This document shows, in pieces, positions 2,433 to 54,584 of a DNA stretch of 64,000 bases. A program made the translations under genes and the position numbers. Every line of letters starts with the position of its first letter. Position 1 is the stretch's first letter. Origin of the DNA: a virus. The notes under the pieces were generated by a model that ran no database searches, was not told the DNA's origin, and saw only the letters and a list, made by a program, of their open reading frames with translations. The stretch lies in IMG/VR virus record IMGVR_UViG_3300042889_001540, positions 1 through 64,000 of that record; one strand, 5' to 3'.

Positions 2433-3212
2433 TTATTTAAATTTTTCTTTTTTTCTTTTTAGGTAATAATCATTAGATGAAGTATATAAAATATTTTGAA
2501 TTAGTTCAATATCCGATTTTGAATTTACTTGAATTGAATGGATATTTTTATTTTTACTAATTTTGGGGGTTGTTTTCATTCCTTTATTTTTAAAATAATT
2601 TAAAATCCAACTTAACAAATCATTTGTCCCCAATAAACTAAATTTAAGTCTTCCATTGTATCTACCAATAGACCCGTCACCGTCAAAATAACCTCTAATA
2701 AAATGAGGGATAAAATCATCAGTTAAATTAGGGGGTAATAATACTAAACTTTTATTTGGGACACAACCTAAATTAATCAAATCATCGGTCATTTTTGAGC
2801 TATTAACTTCTAACTTATAACTTAAAAATTCATCTTTAATTTGTTTAGTGAGTTTATATGTTGACTCCAAGTCAATAATTAATTTCTCTAACAAATATTC
2901 ATCCCCATTTTTTAATGATATCCCAACAATTCCACCTTGTTTGTGTTTCCCATTAAATTGTTTTCGTTTTCTAACACACCCGTCCGCAAATAACAAACCT
3001 AACCAATACGCCTTCTCATTACTATTTATTTTTTCAAAATAATTTTCATTACAACTATGTTTACGGATTCGACTTTTAATATTATTTTTTCTTAAAACAT
3101 TACCAATACTCCAAGTACAAATATTATATTTTTCTGATAATAAATTATAGGACAAACCTAACAAATAATCATCACAAATACGACTACAATCAATTTCAGT
3201 CAATTTTCTCAT
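2433..3212 (-). CDS. Free-standing LAGLIDADG homing endonuclease
   Basis: A 259-residue protein with two LAGLIDADG helices, YWLGLLFADG (69-78) and FIRGYFDGDG (171-180), each ending in the acidic residue that binds catalytic metal; this is the single-chain double-motif form. An N-terminal segment (about 10-50) looks like a helix-turn-helix. Such enzymes cut a long DNA site and spread their own gene by repair. It is not inside an intron: Dam downstream and the genes upstream are complete. Its first 17 bases overlap the end of a small RHH gene, and the overlap includes ATGAGAAAA, the same bases that open the HNH gene at 25770. The gene is very AT-rich, in keeping with mobile origin. Confidence 0.92.
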   Translation of the reverse strand: MRKLTEIDCSRICDDYLLGLSYNLLSEKYNICTWSIGNVLRKNNIKSRIRKHSCNENYFEKINSNEKAYWLGLLFADGCVRKRKQFNGKHKQGGIVGISLKNGDEYLLEKLIIDLESTYKLTKQIKDEFLSYKLEVNSSKMTDDLINLGCVPNKSLVLLPPNLTDDFIPHFIRGYFDGDGSIGRYNGRLKFSLLGTNDLLSWILNYFKNKGMKTTPKISKNKNIHSIQVNSKSDIELIQNILYTSSNDYYLKRKKEKFK

Positions 3213-3357
3213 AATACTCTTTAACTAATTTTTGAATAAACTTGGAGATACTACCCCCCTCGTTTTTCATTTTATCGAAAAGATATCGGTCAATACTTAT
3301 CCCATATTTAACTTTTTTATCTTTGTCTTCTTTATTAGGTCGTCCTATCTTTCCCAT
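3196..3357 (-). CDS. Small ribbon-helix-helix protein paired with homing endonuclease
   Basis: A 53-residue frame starting at ATG 3355-3357 (MGKIGRPNKEDKDKKVKYG...) and ending in TGA at 3196-3198. It has a basic N-terminus, a short beta-strand-like KYGISID, then two predicted helices ending SISKFIQKLVKEYYEKID, the pattern of CopG/Arc-type RHH DNA-binding proteins. It overlaps the LAGLIDADG gene start by 17 bases. A second protein of the same form (25754-25912) overlaps an HNH endonuclease by the same 17 bases. It may repress or target the endonuclease; that is inference. RHH assignment is from pattern only. Confidence 0.75.
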   Translation of the reverse strand: MGKIGRPNKEDKDKKVKYGISIDRYLFDKMKNEGGSISKFIQKLVKEYYEKID

Positions 3358-3404
3358 ATATTATAAATATCACAAAGTATAGTAAAAGTGCGTTAAAAAG
3401 TAAA

Positions 3405-3597: not shown

Positions 3598-4521
3598 TTA
3601 ATTTCTTTCAAATTTCACATTTAGTTTAACATACATATCACCGCCATTATATCCCTTACCTTTCAGTCTTAATGGTTTTGACGTATCAAATATTTTAGGT
3701 TGACCTATCATTAATTCACCATCCGGGTGAGGTACTTTTAATTTATCGTCTTTTATTCCTTCTAAGTCAAGAAATAGACTATAAATTAAGTCATTATTCA
3801 TTTTTTCAAACCCATCTTTTTCAATTAATTCTATTTGAATAACTAAGTCACCAATTTCTCCATTTTTAAAATCCCCAAAGTTTTCTAATTTTAAAAATTG
3901 ACCACTATCAACCCCTTTAGGTAATTTAAAATTAACGGTACTCATTTCACTCTTAGTTCCATGTCCATTACAAGTTTGACATTTATGGACTAAAGTATAA
4001 CCTCGACCACCACAACTCGTACATGATTGTCTTATTTGTTGAACCATAAATCCGGTTCCAAATGTTTTAATTTGAAATCCGGCACCGTTACATCCGGTAC
4101 AAGTTTGTTGTTGTCCACCATTACCACTACATCCCCCACATTGGATATCCTTCAAATATTGTATTTTCTTTTCAATCCCTTGATATGATTCAATGGGGTC
4201 TATAAACACTTTAACTAGTTTATCAGGTACAGATTTTCTTCGAGTTCTTTGAGCGTTACCTCGATTAAACATTTGATTAAATATGTCTTCAAATGTATGA
4301 CCTCCGGTATTTGCAAATGGATTATTCTTAGTTTGGTCATATTGCGCCCGTTTTTGCACATCACCTATTATATCATAAGCTTCAGCAATATCTTTAAATT
4401 GTTCTCCACCCTCAGGATTTATATCCGGGTGATATTTCTTAGATAGAGTACGATAACTCTTTTTTATATCTTGTTGTGAAGCTTTCTCTTCAACTTCTAA
4501 AATTTTGTAGTAATCTTTCAT
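3598..4521 (-). CDS. dnaJ: DnaJ-type co-chaperone with zinc-finger domain
   Basis: A class A (type I) J-protein of 307 residues. The J-domain (1-65) contains HPD at 31-33, the motif that activates DnaK ATPase. There is a short G/F-like linker, then four zinc-binding pairs (C128/131, C141/144, C167/170, C181/184) and a C-terminal substrate-binding region that is shorter than in bacterial DnaJ (usually about 375 residues). No DnaK or GrpE is present here, so it would have to work with host DnaK, as lambda phage and others exploit it. A complete zinc-finger DnaJ is unusual in a phage. Its start codon lies 2 bases from the start of a divergent plus-strand gene, leaving no intergenic promoter. Confidence 0.93.
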   Translation of the reverse strand: MKDYYKILEVEEKASQQDIKKSYRTLSKKYHPDINPEGGEQFKDIAEAYDIIGDVQKRAQYDQTKNNPFANTGGHTFEDIFNQMFNRGNAQRTRRKSVPDKLVKVFIDPIESYQGIEKKIQYLKDIQCGGCSGNGGQQQTCTGCNGAGFQIKTFGTGFMVQQIRQSCTSCGGRGYTLVHKCQTCNGHGTKSEMSTVNFKLPKGVDSGQFLKLENFGDFKNGEIGDLVIQIELIEKDGFEKMNNDLIYSLFLDLEGIKDDKLKVPHPDGELMIGQPKIFDTSKPLRLKGKGYNGGDMYVKLNVKFERN

Positions 4522-12258: not shown

Positions 12259-13056
12259 TTATAAGTATTCAAATAAGTCCGCAGTCTCATTCCTTAATTT
12301 TCTAAGGGATTTCTCTTTTATCTGTCGTACCCTCTCTTTTGTTAAATTAAAATCATTACCAATATCCTCTAATGTTCTTGTCGAACCCGATAACCCGAAA
12401 TAATCTTGTATGATTGTCTTCTCTCTATCGTCTAATACATCCAACATATTCAATAATTTATCCTTTAAAGTGTCCTCTGTTGATAGACCCGCATCCGGAG
12501 CCTCAGCATTTGGATTATTCAAGATATCAACCAAAGTATCACCTTCCTCATTTAGTGGGTTATCCAAATTAATGGTATAAGGTAAATTCGCAAATTTATC
12601 AGGTAATTCCATTCCACCTCTCTCTAACTCTTTTTTCGCTTTATGTAACTCTTGAACCACATTAACCGGGAGACGAATGGTACGGGCATTTTCATTTAAC
12701 GATTGTAATATCGATTGTCTCACCCACCAAACAGCGTAAGAGATAAACCTTAATTTTTTAGACCAATCAAAATTTTCAATTGCCTTCATAAGACCAAGAT
12801 TCCCTTCCGCAATTAAATCCGGAAAATCTAATCCTTGGTTTTGATACTGTTTTGCAACGGTAATAACAAATCTCAAATTACCCTCCAATAACTCCTTATG
12901 GATTTTTTTTATTTCACTTTCCGTGATATTATCCGATAGTATTCTTTCGGATAAGTGTCGTTCTCTTTCAGGTGTCATAACCTTTATCTTACGGATATCC
13001 TTAAGATAATGACTAATTTCTTCCTGATTGATTGGCATCCCTGCTTTTTCCTTCAT
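12259..13056 (-). CDS. RpoD-like sigma-70 family sigma factor
   Basis: 265 residues with sigma regions 1.2/2, 3 and 4 and no region 1.1, the same plan as the short primary sigma factor of Bacteroidota. Region 2 shows LRFVITVAKQYQNQG, DLIAEGNLGLMKAIENFD and the promoter-melting FISYAVWWVRQSILQSL; region 3 begins ARTIRLPVNV; region 4 (about 205-260) has LEDIGNDFNLTKERVRQIKE for -35 recognition and flap binding. T4 gp55 is much shorter, so this is a nearly complete, host-derived type. It likely redirects host RNA polymerase to phage (probably late) promoters. It follows the acidic-protein gene by 3 bases and would share its promoter at 13618-13650. Confidence 0.93.
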   Translation of the reverse strand: MKEKAGMPINQEEISHYLKDIRKIKVMTPERERHLSERILSDNITESEIKKIHKELLEGNLRFVITVAKQYQNQGLDFPDLIAEGNLGLMKAIENFDWSKKLRFISYAVWWVRQSILQSLNENARTIRLPVNVVQELHKAKKELERGGMELPDKFANLPYTINLDNPLNEEGDTLVDILNNPNAEAPDAGLSTEDTLKDKLLNMLDVLDDREKTIIQDYFGLSGSTRTLEDIGNDFNLTKERVRQIKEKSLRKLRNETADLFEYL

Positions 13057-25039: not shown

Positions 25040-25080
25040 AAACACAATTATAAGAATAAAACACCATTATCCAAATTAAT

Positions 25081-25770
25081 TTAATCATTACCTTTACGTA
25101 TATTATCTGTAGCCCATAAAGGTTGTAAATTATTTAACGAATTCACAATTTTAGGGTCAGAACCTTTTTCAAACTTACTAACAGGGATTATATGGTCAAT
25201 ATGCCACTTACCCCAATTATCCCAAGACATTCCTTCAGTAAATAAATTTTCCAGATGATTTTTTAATTCTACCGCTGAATATCCTAAAATATCGTAGGTA
25301 GATGACTCTTTTTTACTGCCAAGTCGTCTAATAACCGAACCTAACATACTTCTCCAAGCATATATGTGAGGGTACCTAATATATCTTTTTTTGTAGTATT
25401 CGTTAAGTTTTTCATGATTATTTTTCGAATAGTTTTTAACTCTTTTTTTATGTGTCTCAGAAAACCCTGAAAAATTATTATAATTATATTTAAATTTATC
25501 ACTACGACATTTTTTACAGACAGACCTATAACCATCTTTACTACTAATATGTTTATGAAATTCACCAACACCTTTTTCAATTAAACAAATAGAACAAGTT
25601 TTACTATTTATAACAATCTTTTTATTTTTCCTATTTGTATGATATTCCTTCTTACTAATAATTTTACGACATTCTTTGCATTGATAATATCGTCCATCTT
25701 TCTCCCTAATATGATAATGAAATTCACAAACATCTTTTTCAATTAAACATTTACTACATATTTTTCTCAT
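25081..25770 (-). CDS. HNH homing endonuclease with two zinc fingers
   Basis: 229 residues. Two similar N-terminal zinc modules, CSKC...CKEC (about 4-36) and CSIC...CKKC (about 59-90), are followed by a basic region and a C-terminal HNH nuclease domain: WDNWGKWHIDHIIPVSKF and NSLNNLQPLWATDNIRKGN. The His-Asp-His-type core is complete. It is free-standing between primase and a small membrane-protein gene, both intact. Its start overlaps the end of an RHH gene by 17 bases, the same arrangement as at 3196-3212, and both nuclease genes begin ATGAGAAAA. The gene is markedly AT-rich. Confidence 0.9.
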   Translation of the reverse strand: MRKICSKCLIEKDVCEFHYHIREKDGRYYQCKECRKIISKKEYHTNRKNKKIVINSKTCSICLIEKGVGEFHKHISSKDGYRSVCKKCRSDKFKYNYNNFSGFSETHKKRVKNYSKNNHEKLNEYYKKRYIRYPHIYAWRSMLGSVIRRLGSKKESSTYDILGYSAVELKNHLENLFTEGMSWDNWGKWHIDHIIPVSKFEKGSDPKIVNSLNNLQPLWATDNIRKGND

Positions 25771-25912
25771 TACTAAAATACTTTATTAATAATTTATTAA
25801 CCAATGACGACAAATTAATAGATTTATCTCTAACAATTTTTTCAATATTAGGGTCTATAGTGATAGACATCCTAATTTTCTTTTCTTCTAACTTTATTTG
25901 TTTACGTCCCAT
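25754..25912 (-). CDS. Small ribbon-helix-helix protein paired with HNH endonuclease
   Basis: A 52-residue frame from ATG 25910-25912 to TAG 25754-25756. It begins MGRKQIKLEEKKIRMSITID and continues with two helices ending LSSLVNKLLIKYFSNEK. The strand-helix-helix pattern and the spacing MSITID/SLVNKLL match the protein at 3196-3357 (YGISID/KFIQKLV), so the two are probably homologous RHH DNA-binding proteins. It overlaps the HNH gene by 17 bases. Function inferred only: regulator or DNA-binding partner of the endonuclease. Confidence 0.75.
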   Translation of the reverse strand: MGRKQIKLEEKKIRMSITIDPNIEKIVRDKSINLSSLVNKLLIKYFSNEKNM

Positions 25913-25982
25913 TTCAATAAATATATTACTTTTTGTTAAAGTATCATTTTTTTTATAATAAAATTAATTTAATTTACCCTAA

Positions 25983-27171: not shown

Positions 27172-27972
27172 TTAAATAATTTTACTACCTTTTTTTATAT
27201 TGTCGATAGCCCACATTGGTTGTAAGTTAGTAAAATGACAGAGATTGTAAAGTTCTTCCTCAGTTTTGGCACTTGATAATGGTATTTTGTGGTCAATATG
27301 CCATCCATAATATCCGTAATTATCCCATGACATTCCTTCATTAAATTTTTGTTCTAAATGTTCTTTCAAAAATTCAGGAGAACAACCTATAATGTTAAAA
27401 CTTTTATTATTTTTTCTTACATCTTTTAATTTAACATAAAAAAGTAACCTATTTCTAAGATTATGTTTTAATCTTTCGATTGGACATTTTTTTCGTTTAT
27501 TTAACGAATTTGTAACCGACTTATTAATTAAATCTTTTTTATTTTTATCGTAATATTCTTTCCATCTTTTTGTTTCTTTTTCAATATTATTTTTTCTATA
27601 ATTTTTATTATATTCACCCCTTTTTTCTTTATTATTCGTATTTCTTTGTCTTGACTTCTCAATAAGAATTTCCCTATTTTTAGTATAATACTCTTTCCTT
27701 TTTATTAAAAGAATTTCCTTATTTTTTTCTATATATTCTTTCCTACCCTCTAAATTATTAACATAATAATCTTTAAAATATAACTTAGTAACATCTTTTT
27801 TACTTTCTCGATATTTTTTTATTTTTTCAATATTTTTGTCATAATATTTTTTACTAACATTTTTTCTACATTCTTTACAAATATTATTATACCCATCTTC
27901 CATACGACTATTCTTAAAAAAATATTCAACATTTTTTTCAAAGGCGCATTTATTACATTTTTTTGTATCCAT
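27172..27972 (-). CDS. HNH homing endonuclease at the tail/replication junction
   Basis: 266 residues. An N-terminal zinc module (CNKC at about 5-8, CKEC at about 32-35), then a long basic region built of degenerate repeats (YYDKNIEKIKKYRESKK, YYTKNREILIEKSRQ), and the HNH domain YGWHIDHKIPLSSAKTEEE with LQPMWAIDNIKKGS at the C-terminus. It is inserted between the RuvC-like gene (1 base away) and the tail-collar gene (6 bases away), at the border of two functional modules. Unlike two other endonucleases here it has no RHH gene. It is extremely AT-rich. Confidence 0.9.
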   Translation of the reverse strand: MDTKKCNKCAFEKNVEYFFKNSRMEDGYNNICKECRKNVSKKYYDKNIEKIKKYRESKKDVTKLYFKDYYVNNLEGRKEYIEKNKEILLIKRKEYYTKNREILIEKSRQRNTNNKEKRGEYNKNYRKNNIEKETKRWKEYYDKNKKDLINKSVTNSLNKRKKCPIERLKHNLRNRLLFYVKLKDVRKNNKSFNIIGCSPEFLKEHLEQKFNEGMSWDNYGYYGWHIDHKIPLSSAKTEEELYNLCHFTNLQPMWAIDNIKKGSKII

Positions 27973-39226: not shown

Positions 39227-42200
39227 TTACAGTACTTCAACCCAACTATTATCCGGACAGAAATAGAGTATATCATTTATCGCGTCGGTACAATAACCAA
39301 TGATTCTAACATTATTACCGGATGCCGGTGGAGATGTTGAGCTAAACCCTCCCGCAGTTGTTGACACATATTGTATAGAACCTAAAGTCATACTAGTAAA
39401 TGACGTTGTACTAAATTTAGCATAACCTCGTAGTAATATTCCATCAGCAACTGTAGTGCCTAAAGCAATACCTAATAATCCTGTCGACCCAGAAACAGTA
39501 GTTGCATTTGCTGCTGTCCAAATACCTCCTGAACTGTAATAATAAACCGAACCAGCAACTAATGTGCCAGAACCGAAGTAAATGACCTCTCCCGCACCAC
39601 CATTAGTAGTTGGAACTGTAAATATTTTATTTTTATCAATATTAAGATTATTAACAAATGTTGTACAACTTCTGTTTGCCGTAAGATTATTACCTATAAT
39701 ATGACTATTATTAAATGATGAAGGGATTGTATTGCACATACCTCCAAGTATTGATGAATTTGTTGAATAAATGTTATTTTGAAATCCACCTCCGATAGTC
39801 GAATAGCAGGAAATTATATCAATTTTGTTACCATATCCACCCCCAATTGTTGACCCATTACCAAAAGACCTGTTGATACTACCACCTCCAACAAATGATT
39901 GGCAACCGGAAGCGGTATTACATTTACCTCCACCAATTGTTGAGAAGTACCCTGTTGCACAGTTTCTAAATCCACCTCCAATTGTCGATAGTCTACCGGC
40001 ATTACAACAAACAATTGCCCCTGATAATATACCTGTAGTTACATTAAATGTTCCACCCGAAGTATTGTGTCCAATACCACCACCAATTGTTGCGCCTAAT
40101 GAACAACATTCATTAGGCGTTGATTGAATTATATTTCTTTGTCCACCACCAATTTGTGAGAACCTTGCTCCCACACTATTACGACAACCACCGACAATAG
40201 TTGAGTAAACTCCTCGTGATGTGTTAAAACTACCTCCGCCAATAAAAGTATAACCAGCTGTTGCACAGTTTCTAAATCCACCTCCAATTGTCGATAGTTT
40301 ACCGGCGTTACAACAATTAATTGACCCAGTTAAATCTCCCGTAGTCGCATCAAATGTTCCACCTGAAGTATTATGTCCAATACCTCCACCAATTGTCGCC
40401 CCTAATGAACAACATTCATTAGGCGTTGATTGAATTATATTTCTTTGTCCACCACCAATTTGTGAGAATTTAGCGTTTGTAATATTACAATATCCGCCTC
40501 CGATAAACGATGTTAACCCTAATGATGAGTTACATCGACCACCACCAATGAATGAATTTTGTCCGGATGAAAGATTACAATAACCACCACCAATTGTTGA
40601 TTGGTAACCTAATGATGAGTTACATTTACCTCCACCAATTGTTGAATAATACCCTGTTGTACCGTTTTCTCCACCACCACCAATTGTTGAGAAATCACCG
40701 AAAGTTTGATTACATCGTCCCCCACCAATGGTTGTGAAACCAATATTAGGGGTTGAAGTATTACAGTAACCTCCAGATATTGTATTACCACCAGTACTTG
40801 CTGCGACACTATTATAAACATTAGTATTAATAGTATTCCTATTCCCACCATTAATAACATCACCTACTCTTGGGTAAGAGTAATTAAAATTTTGAGATGG
40901 AAAAATTCTGTTTGAATAACCACCACCGATAAATGATGTGGTACCTGATGATGAGTTACATCGACCACCACTGATTGTTGAGGTAGACCCTGAAACAAGA
41001 TTATTAAAACCTCCTCCGATTGTTGAACAAAATCCGTTAGAAATATTTTGACGACCACCACCAACGGTTGAATGAGTACAACAAGCCTTGTTATAAAACC
41101 CTCCACTAACTGTTGAACGGATACCATAAGCGGTGTTTTCCTGGCCACCCCCAACTGTCGAATAACAATTATTTGCAATATTATAATTACCTCCAGCAAT
41201 TGTTGAATAAGTACCACAAGCAGTGTTACAAGAACCACCACCAATTGTTGAATAATTATTTGAAGAAGTATTACCACAACCGCCACCGATAAACGATGTT
41301 AACCCTGATGATGAGTTACATTGACCACCACCAATGAATGAATTTTGTCCGGATGAAAGATTACAATAACCACCACCAATTGTTGATTGGTAACCTGATG
41401 ATGAGTTACATTTACCTCCACCAATTGTTGAATAATTATTTGAAGAAGTATTATACGAACCACCACCGATTGTAGAACTAAGTCCAGTAGCATCATTACT
41501 ATATCCACCACTAATCGTAGAATTAAGATTTGACGCAATATTATTAAATCCCCCCCCAACTGTTGAATAAGTATTTGAAGCACAGTTTTGATAACCACCA
41601 CCAATTGTTGACCAATTTCCAAGTGATGAATTACATCTTCCTCCACCAATTGTTGACGCACATCCAATAGTATTATTGAAAACCCCACCAGCAATTGTTG
41701 AACCATCACCAGACGCACCATTTGTTACACCCCCACCAATTGTTGAATATGCAGTTGATACGGTATTATTTCGGCCACCTCCAATTGTTGAACAAGCTCC
41801 TGTTGCACAGTTTTGATAACCACCCCCAATTGTAGAATTAACCCCATAAGCAAGATTAGAACTACCCCCACCAATTGTTGAGTAAGTACAAGAAGCGGTA
41901 TTACCACGACCTCCACCAATTGTTGAAGTATAACCATACGCACAATTTGTTACACCCCCACCAATTGTTGAATAATTATTTGAAGAAGTATTATACGAGC
42001 CACCACCAATTGTTGACCAATTCCCAAGTGATGAGTTACATTGACCACCACCAATGAATGAATTTTGTCCGGATGAAAGATTACAATAACCACCACCAAT
42101 TGTTGATTGGTAACCTGATGATGAGTTACATTTACCTCCACCAATTGTTGAATAATTATTTGAAGAAGTATTATACGAACCACCACCGATTGTAGAACTA

Positions 42201-43606
42201 AGTCCAGTAGCATCATTACTATATCCACCACTAATCGTAGAATTAAGATTTGACGCAATATTATTAAATCCCCCCCCAACTGTTGAATAAGTATTTGAAA
42301 CACAGTTTAGATAACCACCACCAATTGTTGATTGGTAACCTGATGATGAGTTACATTTACCTCCACCAATTGTTGAACAAGCTCCTGTTGCACAGTTTCT
42401 AAATCCACCCCCAATAGTTGATAATCTACCAGCATCACAACAAGTAATTACACCAGTTAAATTTCCAGTAGTAGTATTAAATGTTCCTCCATTAGTATTA
42501 TGACCAATACCGCCACCAATTGTTACCCCTAAAGAGCAATAAGGATTTGTAGGGGATTGAATTATGTTTCTTTGTCCTCCAGCAATAACTGAAAATCTTG
42601 AATTTGTTATGTTGCAACAACCAGCTCCAATTGTTGAATAAGTAGCAGAAGCGGTATTATTTGTTCCCCCTCCAATTGTTGAAAAACCATCAGAAGTAAA
42701 ATTACAAACACCACCTCCAACTGTTGAATTTGTTCCAGAAGCATAATTACATCTACCACCACCTACTGTTGAATACGCACCAGTAGCATCATTGGAATAA
42801 CCACCAGCAATTGTTGAACGACAACCAGAAGCAATATTTAATACACCACCACCAATTGATGAATGGTTCGAAGTAGCGTTATTAGAACTACCACCTCCTA
42901 TTGTTGCCTGACAACCAGAAGCAGTATTAAAAGAACCACCTCCAATTGTTGCATTACTTCCACTTGCAGAATTGTTATTACCACCTGATATTGTTGAAAT
43001 ATATCCTGTTGCACAGTTTCTTAAACCACCACTTATCGTTGATAATTTTCCAGCATTACAACAAGTAATTACTCCTGATAAAATACCTGTGGTCGCATTA
43101 AATGTTCCACCTGAAGTATTGTGTCCAATACCACCACCTATTGTCGTACCCAAAGAACAACATTCATTTATTGGTGATTGAATTACGTTTCTATTACCAC
43201 CACCAATAAATGACATTCTAGCGTTTGTTGTGTTTCCACTTCCACCTAAAGACGCAGAATAAGCACCTGACGCGATATTACTAACGCCACATCTAACTGA
43301 TGAGTTAGTGCCAGTTCCTGATATAATAACCGCGGATGGACGGGTATCAGCACTAACTTTCATAACTAAATCCGTATTTGTAATACCTGTATAATACCAA
43401 TATTCTAATATTCCTGTATTAGAGGTTACATATCTACCTCCATTATATGTTGTTGTTCCGGTTATAATACCAACAGATAAACCAATATACCTATTTGCAA
43501 TAATAATACTATTATTAGCTTCAGTGGTACTAGTCCACGGTCCGTATCGAGTGTCTAATGATTTAGGTGAAAATGTTTCTAAATTGTCATTAATTATAAT
43601 TGCCAT
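39227..43606 (-). CDS. Giant beta-roll tail fibre of 15-residue GGG repeats
   Basis: 1,459 residues. After an N-terminal attachment domain (about 1-115), some 60 degenerate copies of a 15-residue unit, STIGGGxxNxASGxx, run to about residue 1290. The regular Gly-Gly-Gly and Asn/Ser/Thr positions suggest a left-handed beta-roll or beta-helix like the YadA head, probably trimeric. Four Cys-rich inserts (CCSLGATIGGGIGHNTSGGT and CCNAG) interrupt the array. The C-terminal about 160 residues (IFTVPTTNGGAGEVIYFGSG ... SWVEVL) resemble a fibre-tip domain of other phage proteins. It is probably a long receptor-binding or enzyme-less rod fibre. Confidence 0.85.
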   Translation of the reverse strand: MAIIINDNLETFSPKSLDTRYGPWTSTTEANNSIIIANRYIGLSVGIITGTTTYNGGRYVTSNTGILEYWYYTGITNTDLVMKVSADTRPSAVIISGTGTNSSVRCGVSNIASGAYSASLGGSGNTTNARMSFIGGGNRNVIQSPINECCSLGTTIGGGIGHNTSGGTFNATTGILSGVITCCNAGKLSTISGGLRNCATGYISTISGGNNNSASGSNATIGGGSFNTASGCQATIGGGSSNNATSNHSSIGGGVLNIASGCRSTIAGGYSNDATGAYSTVGGGRCNYASGTNSTVGGGVCNFTSDGFSTIGGGTNNTASATYSTIGAGCCNITNSRFSVIAGGQRNIIQSPTNPYCSLGVTIGGGIGHNTNGGTFNTTTGNLTGVITCCDAGRLSTIGGGFRNCATGACSTIGGGKCNSSSGYQSTIGGGYLNCVSNTYSTVGGGFNNIASNLNSTISGGYSNDATGLSSTIGGGSYNTSSNNYSTIGGGKCNSSSGYQSTIGGGYCNLSSGQNSFIGGGQCNSSLGNWSTIGGGSYNTSSNNYSTIGGGVTNCAYGYTSTIGGGRGNTASCTYSTIGGGSSNLAYGVNSTIGGGYQNCATGACSTIGGGRNNTVSTAYSTIGGGVTNGASGDGSTIAGGVFNNTIGCASTIGGGRCNSSLGNWSTIGGGYQNCASNTYSTVGGGFNNIASNLNSTISGGYSNDATGLSSTIGGGSYNTSSNNYSTIGGGKCNSSSGYQSTIGGGYCNLSSGQNSFIGGGQCNSSSGLTSFIGGGCGNTSSNNYSTIGGGSCNTACGTYSTIAGGNYNIANNCYSTVGGGQENTAYGIRSTVSGGFYNKACCTHSTVGGGRQNISNGFCSTIGGGFNNLVSGSTSTISGGRCNSSSGTTSFIGGGYSNRIFPSQNFNYSYPRVGDVINGGNRNTINTNVYNSVAASTGGNTISGGYCNTSTPNIGFTTIGGGRCNQTFGDFSTIGGGGENGTTGYYSTIGGGKCNSSLGYQSTIGGGYCNLSSGQNSFIGGGRCNSSLGLTSFIGGGYCNITNAKFSQIGGGQRNIIQSTPNECCSLGATIGGGIGHNTSGGTFDATTGDLTGSINCCNAGKLSTIGGGFRNCATAGYTFIGGGSFNTSRGVYSTIVGGCRNSVGARFSQIGGGQRNIIQSTPNECCSLGATIGGGIGHNTSGGTFNVTTGILSGAIVCCNAGRLSTIGGGFRNCATGYFSTIGGGKCNTASGCQSFVGGGSINRSFGNGSTIGGGYGNKIDIISCYSTIGGGFQNNIYSTNSSILGGMCNTIPSSFNNSHIIGNNLTANRSCTTFVNNLNIDKNKIFTVPTTNGGAGEVIYFGSGTLVAGSVYYYSSGGIWTAANATTVSGSTGLLGIALGTTVADGILLRGYAKFSTTSFTSMTLGSIQYVSTTAGGFSSTSPPASGNNVRIIGYCTDAINDILYFCPDNSWVEVL
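39951..40160 (-). repeat. Cys-rich cassette in fibre gene (copy 4)
   Basis: About 210 bases coding for NIIQSTPNECCSLGATIGGG, a TSGGTFNVTTGILSGA part, CCNAGRLSTIGGGFRNCATG. Closest to copy 3 (40258-40465); both differ from copies 2 and 1. Confidence 0.8.
40258..40465 (-). repeat. Cys-rich cassette in fibre gene (copy 3)
   Basis: Same cassette, differing in the middle (TFDATTGDLTGSINCCNAGK). Long runs are identical to copy 4, including the segment around 40060-40140 against 40370-40450. Confidence 0.8.
41309..41579 (-). repeat. Exact 271-base direct repeat in fibre gene (copy A)
   Basis: Identical, base for base by eye, to 42029-42299. The offset is 720 bases, exactly sixteen 45-base (15-residue) units, so the reading frame and repeat phase are kept. 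The exactness implies a recent duplication or ongoing gene conversion. Confidence 0.9.
42029..42299 (-). repeat. Exact 271-base direct repeat in fibre gene (copy B)
   Basis: Second copy of 41309-41579. The flanks differ at once on both sides (for example GAAG against GAAA after the right end), which marks the limits of the duplicated tract. Confidence 0.9.
42384..42600 (-). repeat. Cys-rich cassette in fibre gene (copy 2)
   Basis: More diverged copy: SPTNPYCSLGVTIGGGIGHN then GNLTGVITCCDAGRLSTI. One of the paired cysteines is replaced by tyrosine (NPYCS for NECCS). Confidence 0.75.
43005..43215 (-). repeat. Cys-rich cassette in fibre gene (copy 1)
   Basis: First copy in reading order: SPINECCSLGTTIGGGIGHN, then GILSGVITCCNAGKLSTISG. 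It lies close to the N-terminal end of the repeat array. Confidence 0.75.
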
Positions 43607-52693: not shown

Positions 52694-53461
52694 TTATATT
52701 GTCTTTAATATTTTATTTCCTTTTTTTAAATTATCTTCAGCCCATAATGGTTGAAGATTCGTATAGTAACTAAGTTGGTAAATTTCTTCTTCAGTTTTAG
52801 ATGAAGATAATGGTATTATGTGGTCTATATGCCACCCATATAATCCATAATTTTCCCAAGACATACCCTCCTTAAATTGTTTTTCCAAATGTTCTTTAAG
52901 AAATTCCGGAGTACATCCTACAATTTCAAAGGTTTTATTTTTTTTAGTTATAATGTTAAGTTTCAAATATTGACTTAATCTTCGTCTAATATTACTTGAC
53001 ATTTTTCTTTTTGGTTTTTGATTACTTTTCTTAAGGGTTTCTTTTATTTTTTCAGGATTGTTTTCTCGATATTTTTTGTGAGATTCCATTATTTTTTCAA
53101 TATTATTTTCTCTATATTGTTTACTATATTCCTTTATCTTTTCAATATTATTTTTTTTCCAAATTGATGAATTTTCAATAGATTTTTTAGAATTATTTTC
53201 ATACCATTTTTGACTATAATCTTTTACCTTATCAGGGTTATTTTTTTTCCATTCTCTACTTCTTTGGATTTCTTTTTCAGAGTTTATTTTATACCAATTT
53301 TGACTTGTCTCTTTTTTCTTCTCTGAATTAAGTTCCATCCATTTTGAAACACGTTTTATATTACACGTTTTACATTCACTCCTCCTATAAAGTTTTTTCT
53401 CTAAATAAAAATCATCCAATGATTTTTCAATTAAACATTTAGTACAAACTTTTGTTTCCAT
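52694..53461 (-). CDS. HNH homing endonuclease with tandem repeats
   Basis: 255 residues from the ATG at 53459-53461 (METKVCTKCLIEKSLDDF), chosen because the zinc module of the sister enzymes starts the same way; the longer frame would overlap the upstream gene by 41 bases. After the module (CTKC, CKTC) come about six tandem repeats of 14-15 residues (NNIEKIKEYSKQYRENN type), then the HNH core WHIDHIIPLSSSKTEEE and LQPLWAEDNLKKGN. It sits in the baseplate operon between two intact genes. The repeats probably form a basic helical rod that contacts DNA. The gene is strongly AT-rich. Confidence 0.88.
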   Translation of the reverse strand: METKVCTKCLIEKSLDDFYLEKKLYRRSECKTCNIKRVSKWMELNSEKKKETSQNWYKINSEKEIQRSREWKKNNPDKVKDYSQKWYENNSKKSIENSSIWKKNNIEKIKEYSKQYRENNIEKIMESHKKYRENNPEKIKETLKKSNQKPKRKMSSNIRRRLSQYLKLNIITKKNKTFEIVGCTPEFLKEHLEKQFKEGMSWENYGLYGWHIDHIIPLSSSKTEEEIYQLSYYTNLQPLWAEDNLKKGNKILKTI

Positions 53462-53492
53462 ATTCATAAATACCTTATCTCTTTTTTTTCTG

Positions 53493-54584
53493 TTAATTTT
53501 CTTTATTAATGACATTGAAGAACCCAAACCCATAGTTAATCATGTCACCAAGGTTATCTACCTCACCTAATCTTTGTATTCTCTCATACGCGGAGTTTTT
53601 ACCTCTTTCAACAAAAACATTAGTTTGAACCTGTGCTTGGTCAATAACTTTGAGTAATACCTCATCTTTAGTTATTGGAACCGCAGTTATATTATTTTCC
53701 GTAAGTCCTGATGATTGTACGAAATAAATTGTGGTACCATCAATGTAATCATAGTAATTAATTTCAGTAATTGTATAAGCAGTATAAATTGAAGTAACAT
53801 CTGTTATTGCTCCCCATATTTGACCATTACTAATCACAGGAACCCCAATTCGTTCATTAATTGTTGGATTACCATACATTTTTAACTCATTAATTCTCGA
53901 CTTAGTAATTCCTGATACGGTAAACGGTATTGAAACATAATTGTTAGAGGTTTGAGCAGATACTTCATTAATCGCATCCCCAGAAAATATATAATCATAA
54001 GATACCGAAGTCCCAACCCAATTCCCTGAAGAAGGAGCAAAAAATGCTTCACCCTGTGGGTTGTAAATTACAACATCACTAAATGGAACCGTTATTGTTT
54101 TTGAAACACTGGTAATGCCCCAAGGATTTGTTTGTTCTAATTTAATCGTATATTCTTTATTCTCAACAGGGTATGTGTGATTAATTGAATTAGGTGCGTA
54201 ATTAGTGATAGTTTGTTTTGGGGAACCGTCACCCCAATCAATCTTATATGAAGATAAATCTAAAAATTTTTGGAACTCATCCGACGTATTATAAACATTG
54301 TAAAGGTAAGGGGATGATGTTGTTGAAGAAAATATAAAATTTGCAACAACATTTTTTTGTAATACCGCACCATCAAATGGACTATAATACCCGGTATCAA
54401 CCGCACTTTGTCTAATCAAAATAGGTATAGTCAATCCGGTTAATAAGGAACTACCATTAACACCCGAACTAACAACTTGGGTCATTGCAGAATAAACACC
54501 AACGGGTGTCCCTTCATAATCAACAACGAATAAATCCCCAAGAATCGTTTCCGGTGATATTTTAATATTATAAAAATCTTCCAT
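53493..54584 (-). CDS. PKD-domain baseplate/tail protein
   Basis: 363 residues. A PKD-like domain (about 105-175) contains YKIDWGDGSPKQTITNY, NHTYPVENKEYTIKLEQTNP and ISTVSK-type strands; PKD domains are small beta-sandwiches that mediate protein or glycan contact. The C-terminus NVFVERGKNSAYERIQRLGE then VDNLGDMINYGFGFFNVI looks conserved and might anchor the protein in the baseplate. The start overlaps the stop of the upstream gene by one base. Baseplate assignment is from position. Confidence 0.75.
   Translation of the reverse strand: MEDFYNIKISPETILGDLFVVDYEGTPVGVYSAMTQVVSSGVNGSSLLTGLTIPILIRQSAVDTGYYSPFDGAVLQKNVVANFIFSSTTSSPYLYNVYNTSDEFQKFLDLSSYKIDWGDGSPKQTITNYAPNSINHTYPVENKEYTIKLEQTNPWGITSVSKTITVPFSDVVIYNPQGEAFFAPSSGNWVGTSVSYDYIFSGDAINEVSAQTSNNYVSIPFTVSGITKSRINELKMYGNPTINERIGVPVISNGQIWGAITDVTSIYTAYTITEINYYDYIDGTTIYFVQSSGLTENNITAVPITKDEVLLKVIDQAQVQTNVFVERGKNSAYERIQRLGEVDNLGDMINYGFGFFNVINKEN

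Follow-up and report, generated by a model that had tools for sequence, protein, structure and literature searches.

How free-standing homing endonucleases are controlled so that the phage carrying them is spared harm is only partly understood. The locus at 2433..3357 raises this question in a small space: a LAGLIDADG endonuclease gene starts there inside a gene of only 53 codons, and the same layout returns elsewhere in the window (the whole 64,000-nt stretch analysed here, taken from a 102-kb virus record) with an HNH nuclease.

Small genes overlapping homing-type nuclease genes

The sequence-only reading had paired a 53-aa ORF with a 259-aa LAGLIDADG ORF and a 52-aa ORF with a 229-aa HNH ORF, and both pairs were verified, each with a 17-nt overlap (ATGAGAAAATTGACTGA in cassette 1 and ATGAGAAAAATATGTAG in cassette 2). 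The small genes are called RHH1 and RHH2 here, after the ribbon-helix-helix (RHH) type predicted for their products.

2433..3212, minus strand: LAGLIDADG endonuclease gene, 259 aa (Pfam LAGLIDADG_3, 1.8e-8; phrog_4645 endonuclease, 2.8e-50)
3196..3212, minus strand: cassette 1 overlap, 17 nt, containing the nuclease start codon; +1 frame relative to RHH1
3196..3357, minus strand: RHH1 gene, 53 aa (relatives at 61 viral loci; family profile matches; AF2 model)
25046..25982, minus strand: whole inserted cassette 2 (promoter region, RHH2 and nuclease), ends approximate, flanked by a 48-55-aa ORF and the primase gene
25081..25770, minus strand: HNH / endonuclease VII-like gene, 229 aa (phrog_1035 endonuclease VII, 6.4e-28; Pfam HNH 1.1e-3, below cut-off)
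25754..25770, minus strand: cassette 2 overlap, 17 nt, containing the HNH nuclease start codon
25754..25912, minus strand: RHH2 gene, 52 aa (CcdA 1.3e-3; 269 relatives in viral contigs, best 80 kept)

Small ORFs overlapping a larger ORF number only a handful in the whole window, and a 17-nt overlap occurs in cassettes 1 and 2 only; as the layout recurs at homologous loci, the two pairs represent more than chance. A third cassette lies beyond the window in the same record (72.7-73.6 kb), with a 50-aa RHH, a 243-aa HNH protein and an 11-nt overlap, adjoining a RecA/UvsX-like gene and placed behind it. Cassette 2 is followed by a primase gene and cassette 1 by a Dam-type gene. The flanks of cassette 1 hold Dam-type methyltransferase and DnaJ genes (1580-2431 and 3598-4521, minus strand), and Dam-type genes were also seen behind the RHH1 loci L024/L208 and L031/L201. 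Membership in an anti-phage defence system was rejected, as PADLOC matched no known defence protein model to the proteins P0001-P0004. A tRNA gene search found none. Elsewhere in the window, a 1459-aa low-complexity, repetitive ORF (39227-43606, minus strand) probably encodes a tail-fibre-like repeat protein; several long shadow ORFs run in its other frames.

Taken alone, the RHH1 protein (P0001) gave no Pfam match and the RHH2 protein (P0003) gave the sub-threshold CcdA match listed above. Among family members, the CcdA profile was matched in 10 of 16 (best 8.8e-6), the BrnA antitoxin profile in four and RHH_9 in one, and in PHROGs the Arc-like repressor phrog_582 was matched weakly (0.036 for P0001, 0.0012 for the RHH3 family described below). 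In the AF2 monomer of P0001 (pLDDT 80), a conserved strand-like segment is followed by one helix at residues 24-32 and another at 37-52; the model of RHH2 was weaker (pLDDT 68). The best Foldseek matches were to the RHH protein CdbA, with poor statistics (E = 3.6), and a PDB sequence search with the RHH profile returned nothing meaningful. Profiles and models together make it likely, but not proven, that the small protein is of the ribbon-helix-helix (MetJ/Arc) type. Scans of bacterial and archaeal genome contigs gave no relatives; among named phages, P0001 had no match and P0003 a single weak one, in the 735-kb uncultured phage LR756501.

The CcdA and BrnA matches could point to an antitoxin-type or counter-defence function: the phage would profit from the RHH protein as a free antitoxin mimic, and the nuclease would offset its own cost by hitch-hiking behind so useful a gene. 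This was put forward as a second option for similar genes in moraphages (PMC12619734). The CcdA match, however, spans only positions 3-39 of the 71 in the profile, that is, the N-terminal DNA-binding part, and the protein stops there; by this comparison, the C-terminal region with which type II antitoxins bind and neutralise their toxins is absent. The RHH proteins are 49-55 aa long, and the residues past the second helix differ according to the nuclease behind.

A constant reading frame and exchange of nucleases at the start codon

The view that the pair is a reusable unit had been drawn from two copies. To place it on a broader footing, viral contigs were searched with P0001, which gave 61 loci, and with P0003, for which the best 80 of 269 were taken. 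After removal of near-duplicates, 96 distinct RHH1/RHH2-type loci were left, 95 of them evaluable and one ended by a contig edge; most loci come from RHH-keyed searches and they are phylogenetically non-independent. With RHH2 represented by the best 80 of 269, an overlapping downstream ORF was found at 90 of the 95 evaluable loci and a degenerate endonuclease at the other five, where the remnant is the nuclease's first 14-31 residues, its last part, or a methyltransferase just past the nuclease start. At L089, counted among the 90, the ORF is a C5 methyltransferase fused to a METK start. Conversely, a LAGLIDADG-keyed search with a 227-aa partner found an RHH gene upstream in 28 of 28 relatives. 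The idea of a reusable regulatory unit is thus supported well beyond its first two copies, the layout being widespread in large aquatic phages, and the RHH homologues, for which a check of their neighbours had been proposed, are not mostly found apart from endonucleases.

Among the 90 loci the overlap measures 8, 11, 14, 17, 20, 23 or 29 nt, and it is 2 mod 3 in all 90. The weak match in LR756501 led to a third family, RHH3, found in huge phages; its member there is 51 aa long and shares a 17-nt overlap with an EndoVII-like gene. The six overlaps of this family (8-26 nt) are again all 2 mod 3, and its other partners are GIY-YIG proteins (L351, L352 and L355), a truncated HNH-like ORF (L350) and, at L349, a PD-(D/E)XK protein that also has NUMOD3. 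The constant 17-nt overlap suggested by the window was therefore rejected, as 8, 11, 14, 17, 20, 23, 26 and 29 nt were all seen, and it is the reading-frame relation that is constant. The 735-kb phage also carries another RHH-like gene (L315, 1995-2865; 54 aa). The gene behind it starts 1 nt later, with no overlap, and encodes a homing-type nuclease of 234 aa whose end is DUF559/Vsr-like.

A leader before every endonuclease was likewise rejected, given the HNH genes without RHH in the window and at L293, L312, L313 and L154-L158. Those of the window (27172-27972 and 52694-53533, minus strand, EndoVII-like) stand directly behind their upstream genes, with no space for a cassette-type promoter. 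The gene at 52694-53533 overlaps its upstream gene by ~41 nt and has an internal METKVCTKC start like that of the nucleases behind RHH2.

Across the three families the partners belong to four nuclease folds, HNH/EndoVII, LAGLIDADG, PD-(D/E)XK and GIY-YIG, all from known homing families; they include NUMOD3 plus TnsA-like PD-(D/E)XK proteins behind RHH2 (L081/L085). Comparison of close relatives showed how they come to share one leader. Three loci (L188, L172 and L055) are 99% identical over the 140 nt before the nuclease ATG and fall to background (35-46%) from +12 to +60, where their nucleases are of two LAGLIDADG kinds and one HNH kind. L083, L081 and L089 show a like pattern, and across such loci identity is 94-99% up to the ATG and lost by ~12 nt past it, demonstrating that nucleases have been exchanged at their start codon. 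The start codon sits within RHH codons (for example TAT-GAG or AAT-GGA) and the RHH stop codon comes from the nuclease sequence (for example ATATGTAG, Ile-Cys-Ser), which explains both the fixed frame and the variable overlap length. Chimeric 281-aa nucleases with the zinc-ribbon N-terminus of HNH partners and a LAGLIDADG body (L026, L066 and relatives) indicate exchange inside nuclease genes too. C5-methyltransferase genes with an apparent intein-like insertion were seen directly behind RHH2 (L077-L080, L089 and L090); in L089/L090 the methyltransferase ORF begins with the METK of the lost nuclease. A programmed frameshift fusing RHH to the nuclease was set aside because the nuclease has its own ATG.

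These exchanges bear on the adaptor half of the proposed repressor/adaptor role, in which the RHH protein would be the nuclease's DNA-binding subunit and help to choose or avoid cleavage sites. A DNA-binding-type protein co-produced with a nuclease would suit such a role, and free-standing phage nucleases often have added DNA-binding modules, such as the NUMOD3 seen here. Near-identical RHH proteins, however, accompany unrelated nuclease folds at the same site, the partners own zinc-ribbon or NUMOD modules, and RHH tree and nuclease class are uncoupled (19 class changes on the RHH1 tree against 21.2 with shuffled labels). We therefore consider targeting by the RHH protein very improbable, and this half of the proposal is disfavoured.

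Promoter-like elements and a candidate operator

Upstream of the two RHH genes of the window, the following elements were recognised.

3363..3371, minus strand: GATATTTAT element just 5' of the RHH1 start, common to RHH1 and RHH2 cassettes
3376..3404, minus strand: promoter-like site of cassette 1 (TTTACT, 17-nt spacer, TATACT), from a consensus scan
3384..3393, minus strand: ACGCACTTTT box inside the promoter spacer, candidate operator of RHH1
25917..25924, minus strand: ATATTTAT element upstream of RHH2
25934..25947, minus strand: ATGATACTTTAACA element upstream of RHH2, candidate operator of its subgroup

The consensus scan of cassette 1 found one promoter-like site against 0.9 expected by shuffling, so its position counts more than its score; by inspection, the spacing is kept in several relatives. 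The box in its spacer is specific to one subfamily: ACGCACTTT is present in 45 of 45 RHH1 cassettes, mostly 35-38 nt upstream of the ATG, and CGCACTTT in none of the 51 RHH2 cassettes (drawn from the best 80 of 269). It is kept although the synonymous sites of RHH1 are near saturation (pS 0.71). The nine records having any copy, among 11 searched, have one or two each, and the exact box occurs once in the window and once in each record of 102, 308 and 309 kb; ACGCACTTTT as a general phage promoter element was rejected on account of this scarcity. When the box together with ATATTTAT was scanned for in the whole collection, an RHH gene was found by script at 29 of the 80 matches listed; the remaining matches, in unrelated flanks or genes, look like chance. 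The box could also be the site of a different regulator.

The other families differ in their upstream sequences. Tandem-repeat or palindromic operators were not evident in RHH1 promoters, and a tandem-repeat operator for RHH1 is unsupported (lag-11 z = 0.6); RHH3 promoters have 11-bp tandem repeats (lag-11 z = 5.3). In the RHH2 family, ATGATACTTTWACA is common to four cassettes with a KIR(M/L)S strand (L068, L072, L074 and L084). Two elements are probably of general use in the phage: GATATTTAT, as a start or promoter element, and the more widely shared ATATTTAT before the ATG. In the 30 nt before large minus-strand genes of the window, TATTTAT is enriched (6 of 52 against 0.7 expected) and Shine-Dalgarno-like sequences are rare (2 of 52), a pattern consistent with a phage promoter element and a host of the Bacteroidota type. 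The gene for a phage sigma factor lies at 12259-13056 (minus strand).

A conserved, cassette-specific site overlapping the promoter is what control of the I-TevI kind would lead one to expect, and the repressor half of the proposed role is favoured by it. The best explanation of the cassette, and in our judgement a probable one, is a portable module of autorepressor and promoter by which a homing endonuclease is kept in check. The unit would comprise a promoter with its operator, an RHH protein of ~50 aa and a predicted homing endonuclease whose ATG falls within the final RHH codons. The RHH protein would bind its own promoter sequences and repress the cassette, and this autorepression, along with coupled or low translation from an ATG inside the RHH gene, would make nuclease levels low and self-limiting. 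On entry into an unmarked phage genome, where the repressor has not yet accumulated, a burst of nuclease could follow at the moment when homing is useful. As the control part would be generic, recombination at the start codon could bring in unrelated nucleases behind it, the incoming sequence providing, in its other frame, the stop codon for RHH.

Selection, persistence and mobility of the unit

The RHH gene is under strong purifying selection, with pN/pS of 0.115 in the RHH1 core and 0.284 in the RHH2 core; the LAGLIDADG partner had 0.282 against 0.107 for RHH at those loci (all pairwise averages, non-independent). Synonymous divergence at those loci was lower in the nuclease (0.48) than in RHH (0.67), the pattern that would arise from nucleases spreading among RHH genes older than they are.

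Such selection weighs against the idea of a translational leader only, that is, a short ORF that loads ribosomes for the nuclease or throttles it via the overlapping ATG, its protein mattering little. The overlaps are short with a fixed +1 frame, and the T-even seg/mob genes offer a likeness, as they too are intergenic insertions and, in four T4 cases (segC, segF, mobA and mobC), share 11-24 bp with the ORF before them (PMC2988022). An arbitrary leader, however, would not retain the low RHH1 pN/pS and the conserved RHH pattern; the overlapped ORFs in T4 are ordinary resident phage genes, not element-borne dedicated regulators; and translational independence was found in tests of the PvuII overlap (PMC2997769). 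We regard a leader without a protein function as unlikely.

The RHH gene also outlasts its partners. It is intact beside a decayed nuclease at L023, L029, L077, L201, L208, L346 and L348, the last two having internally deleted nucleases, and stands without any nuclease at L353/L354. Simple autorepression alone does not account for RHH genes surviving beside dead nucleases. Exclusion, or immunity, would account for these loci if a resident RHH repressed incoming cassettes of the same operator class and blocked re-invasion, being kept after nuclease death for that reason; but this needs autorepression as well, and the surviving RHHs may simply be recent, so that exclusion seems quite doubtful. 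Intact RHH genes are equally expected if RHH is useful alone, as the antitoxin mimic would be. Against that mimic, partners are almost exclusively nucleases, where a generally useful antitoxin would need none, and the promoter box covaries with the subfamily; we think it improbable. A more far-reaching form of the autorepressor module can be entertained tentatively: promoter, RHH and embedded ATG may form an independent, selfish exchange platform that takes up nucleases of all four major homing families one after another, persists longer than any of them, and controls or excludes other cassettes of its own operator class.

Six relatives of the primase region (L283-L288) have the same flanking genes and no cassette 2, and these empty sites indicate joint movement of promoter, RHH and nuclease, the whole being present or absent at a single site between related genomes; the cassette ends are approximate because the relatives' flanks have diverged. 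At the same site, L293 carries an HNH gene without RHH. A cognate methyltransferase was sought as part of the unit, and the cassette missing from the empty sites has none; the Dam-type gene behind cassette 1 has its place taken by primase behind cassette 2, and the neighbour ahead of cassette 3 is the RecA-like gene.

Several known systems resemble the cassette in part, above all, among the nearest precedents (I-TevI, PvuII and the moraphage antitoxins), one paragraph on moraphages, which reports CcdA/HicB-like antitoxin genes beside PacI-like putative homing endonucleases and proposes that they regulate the nuclease (PMC12619734, Arch Virol 2025). These jumbo freshwater phages have predicted Bacteroidota hosts and DnaJ genes, and a DnaJ gene is also found beside cassette 1. 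The likeness lies in an antitoxin-like small gene paired with an HNH-type endonuclease, and for that reason RHH pairing with HNH nucleases is not new; no mention was found in the text of that paper of the overlap and frame rule, the promoter box, LAGLIDADG, GIY-YIG or PD-(D/E)XK partners, the exchange junction or the empty sites. In T4, the I-TevI nuclease represses the promoter of its own gene (PMC2988022). There, too, a selfish endonuclease's promoter is shut by a cassette-encoded protein, as shown for I-TevI, but the repressor is the nuclease itself, and intronic, whereas here a separate RHH protein is the putative repressor and the nuclease is exchangeable. In type II toxin-antitoxin systems of the CcdA/CcdB kind, an RHH-type first gene likewise precedes an effector, with probable autoregulation; the cassette differs in lacking the toxin-binding tail and in having a homing-type nuclease as effector.

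The C proteins of restriction-modification systems are helix-turn-helix (HTH) proteins. In the PvuII type, a small regulator gene overlaps the nuclease start by ~20 nt and is cotranscribed with it, with no translational role detectable for the overlap (PMC2997769). C proteins both activate and repress and a protective methyltransferase belongs to the system, whereas the RHH unit has no methyltransferase. The annotated regulator p099 of Rhizobium phage 16-3, whose gene overlaps one for EndoVII, was considered as a relative and rejected, since its sequence looks HTH, not RHH. The pair (L311) consists of a 69-aa HTH-like regulator (1299-1508) and an EndoVII-like gene (1462-2259) with a 47-nt overlap, 2 mod 3, and is possibly an independent regulator-plus-nuclease pair.

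Nucleases of four folds exchanged at a fixed ATG, the frame rule, a subfamily-specific box and RHH persistence were not found in the literature searched; there appears to be no earlier description of the exchange platform, of the frame rule or of the operator candidate. The cassette represents a recurrent, compact answer to the problem of nuclease control, made of an element-borne repressor-like gene, a candidate operator and a fixed start-codon junction. If this reading is true, control would be separated from cutting in these selfish genes, tiny antitoxin-like genes in jumbo phages would gain a new annotation rule, and the cassette would provide a design, taken from nature, in which the control part stays and the nuclease behind it is swapped.
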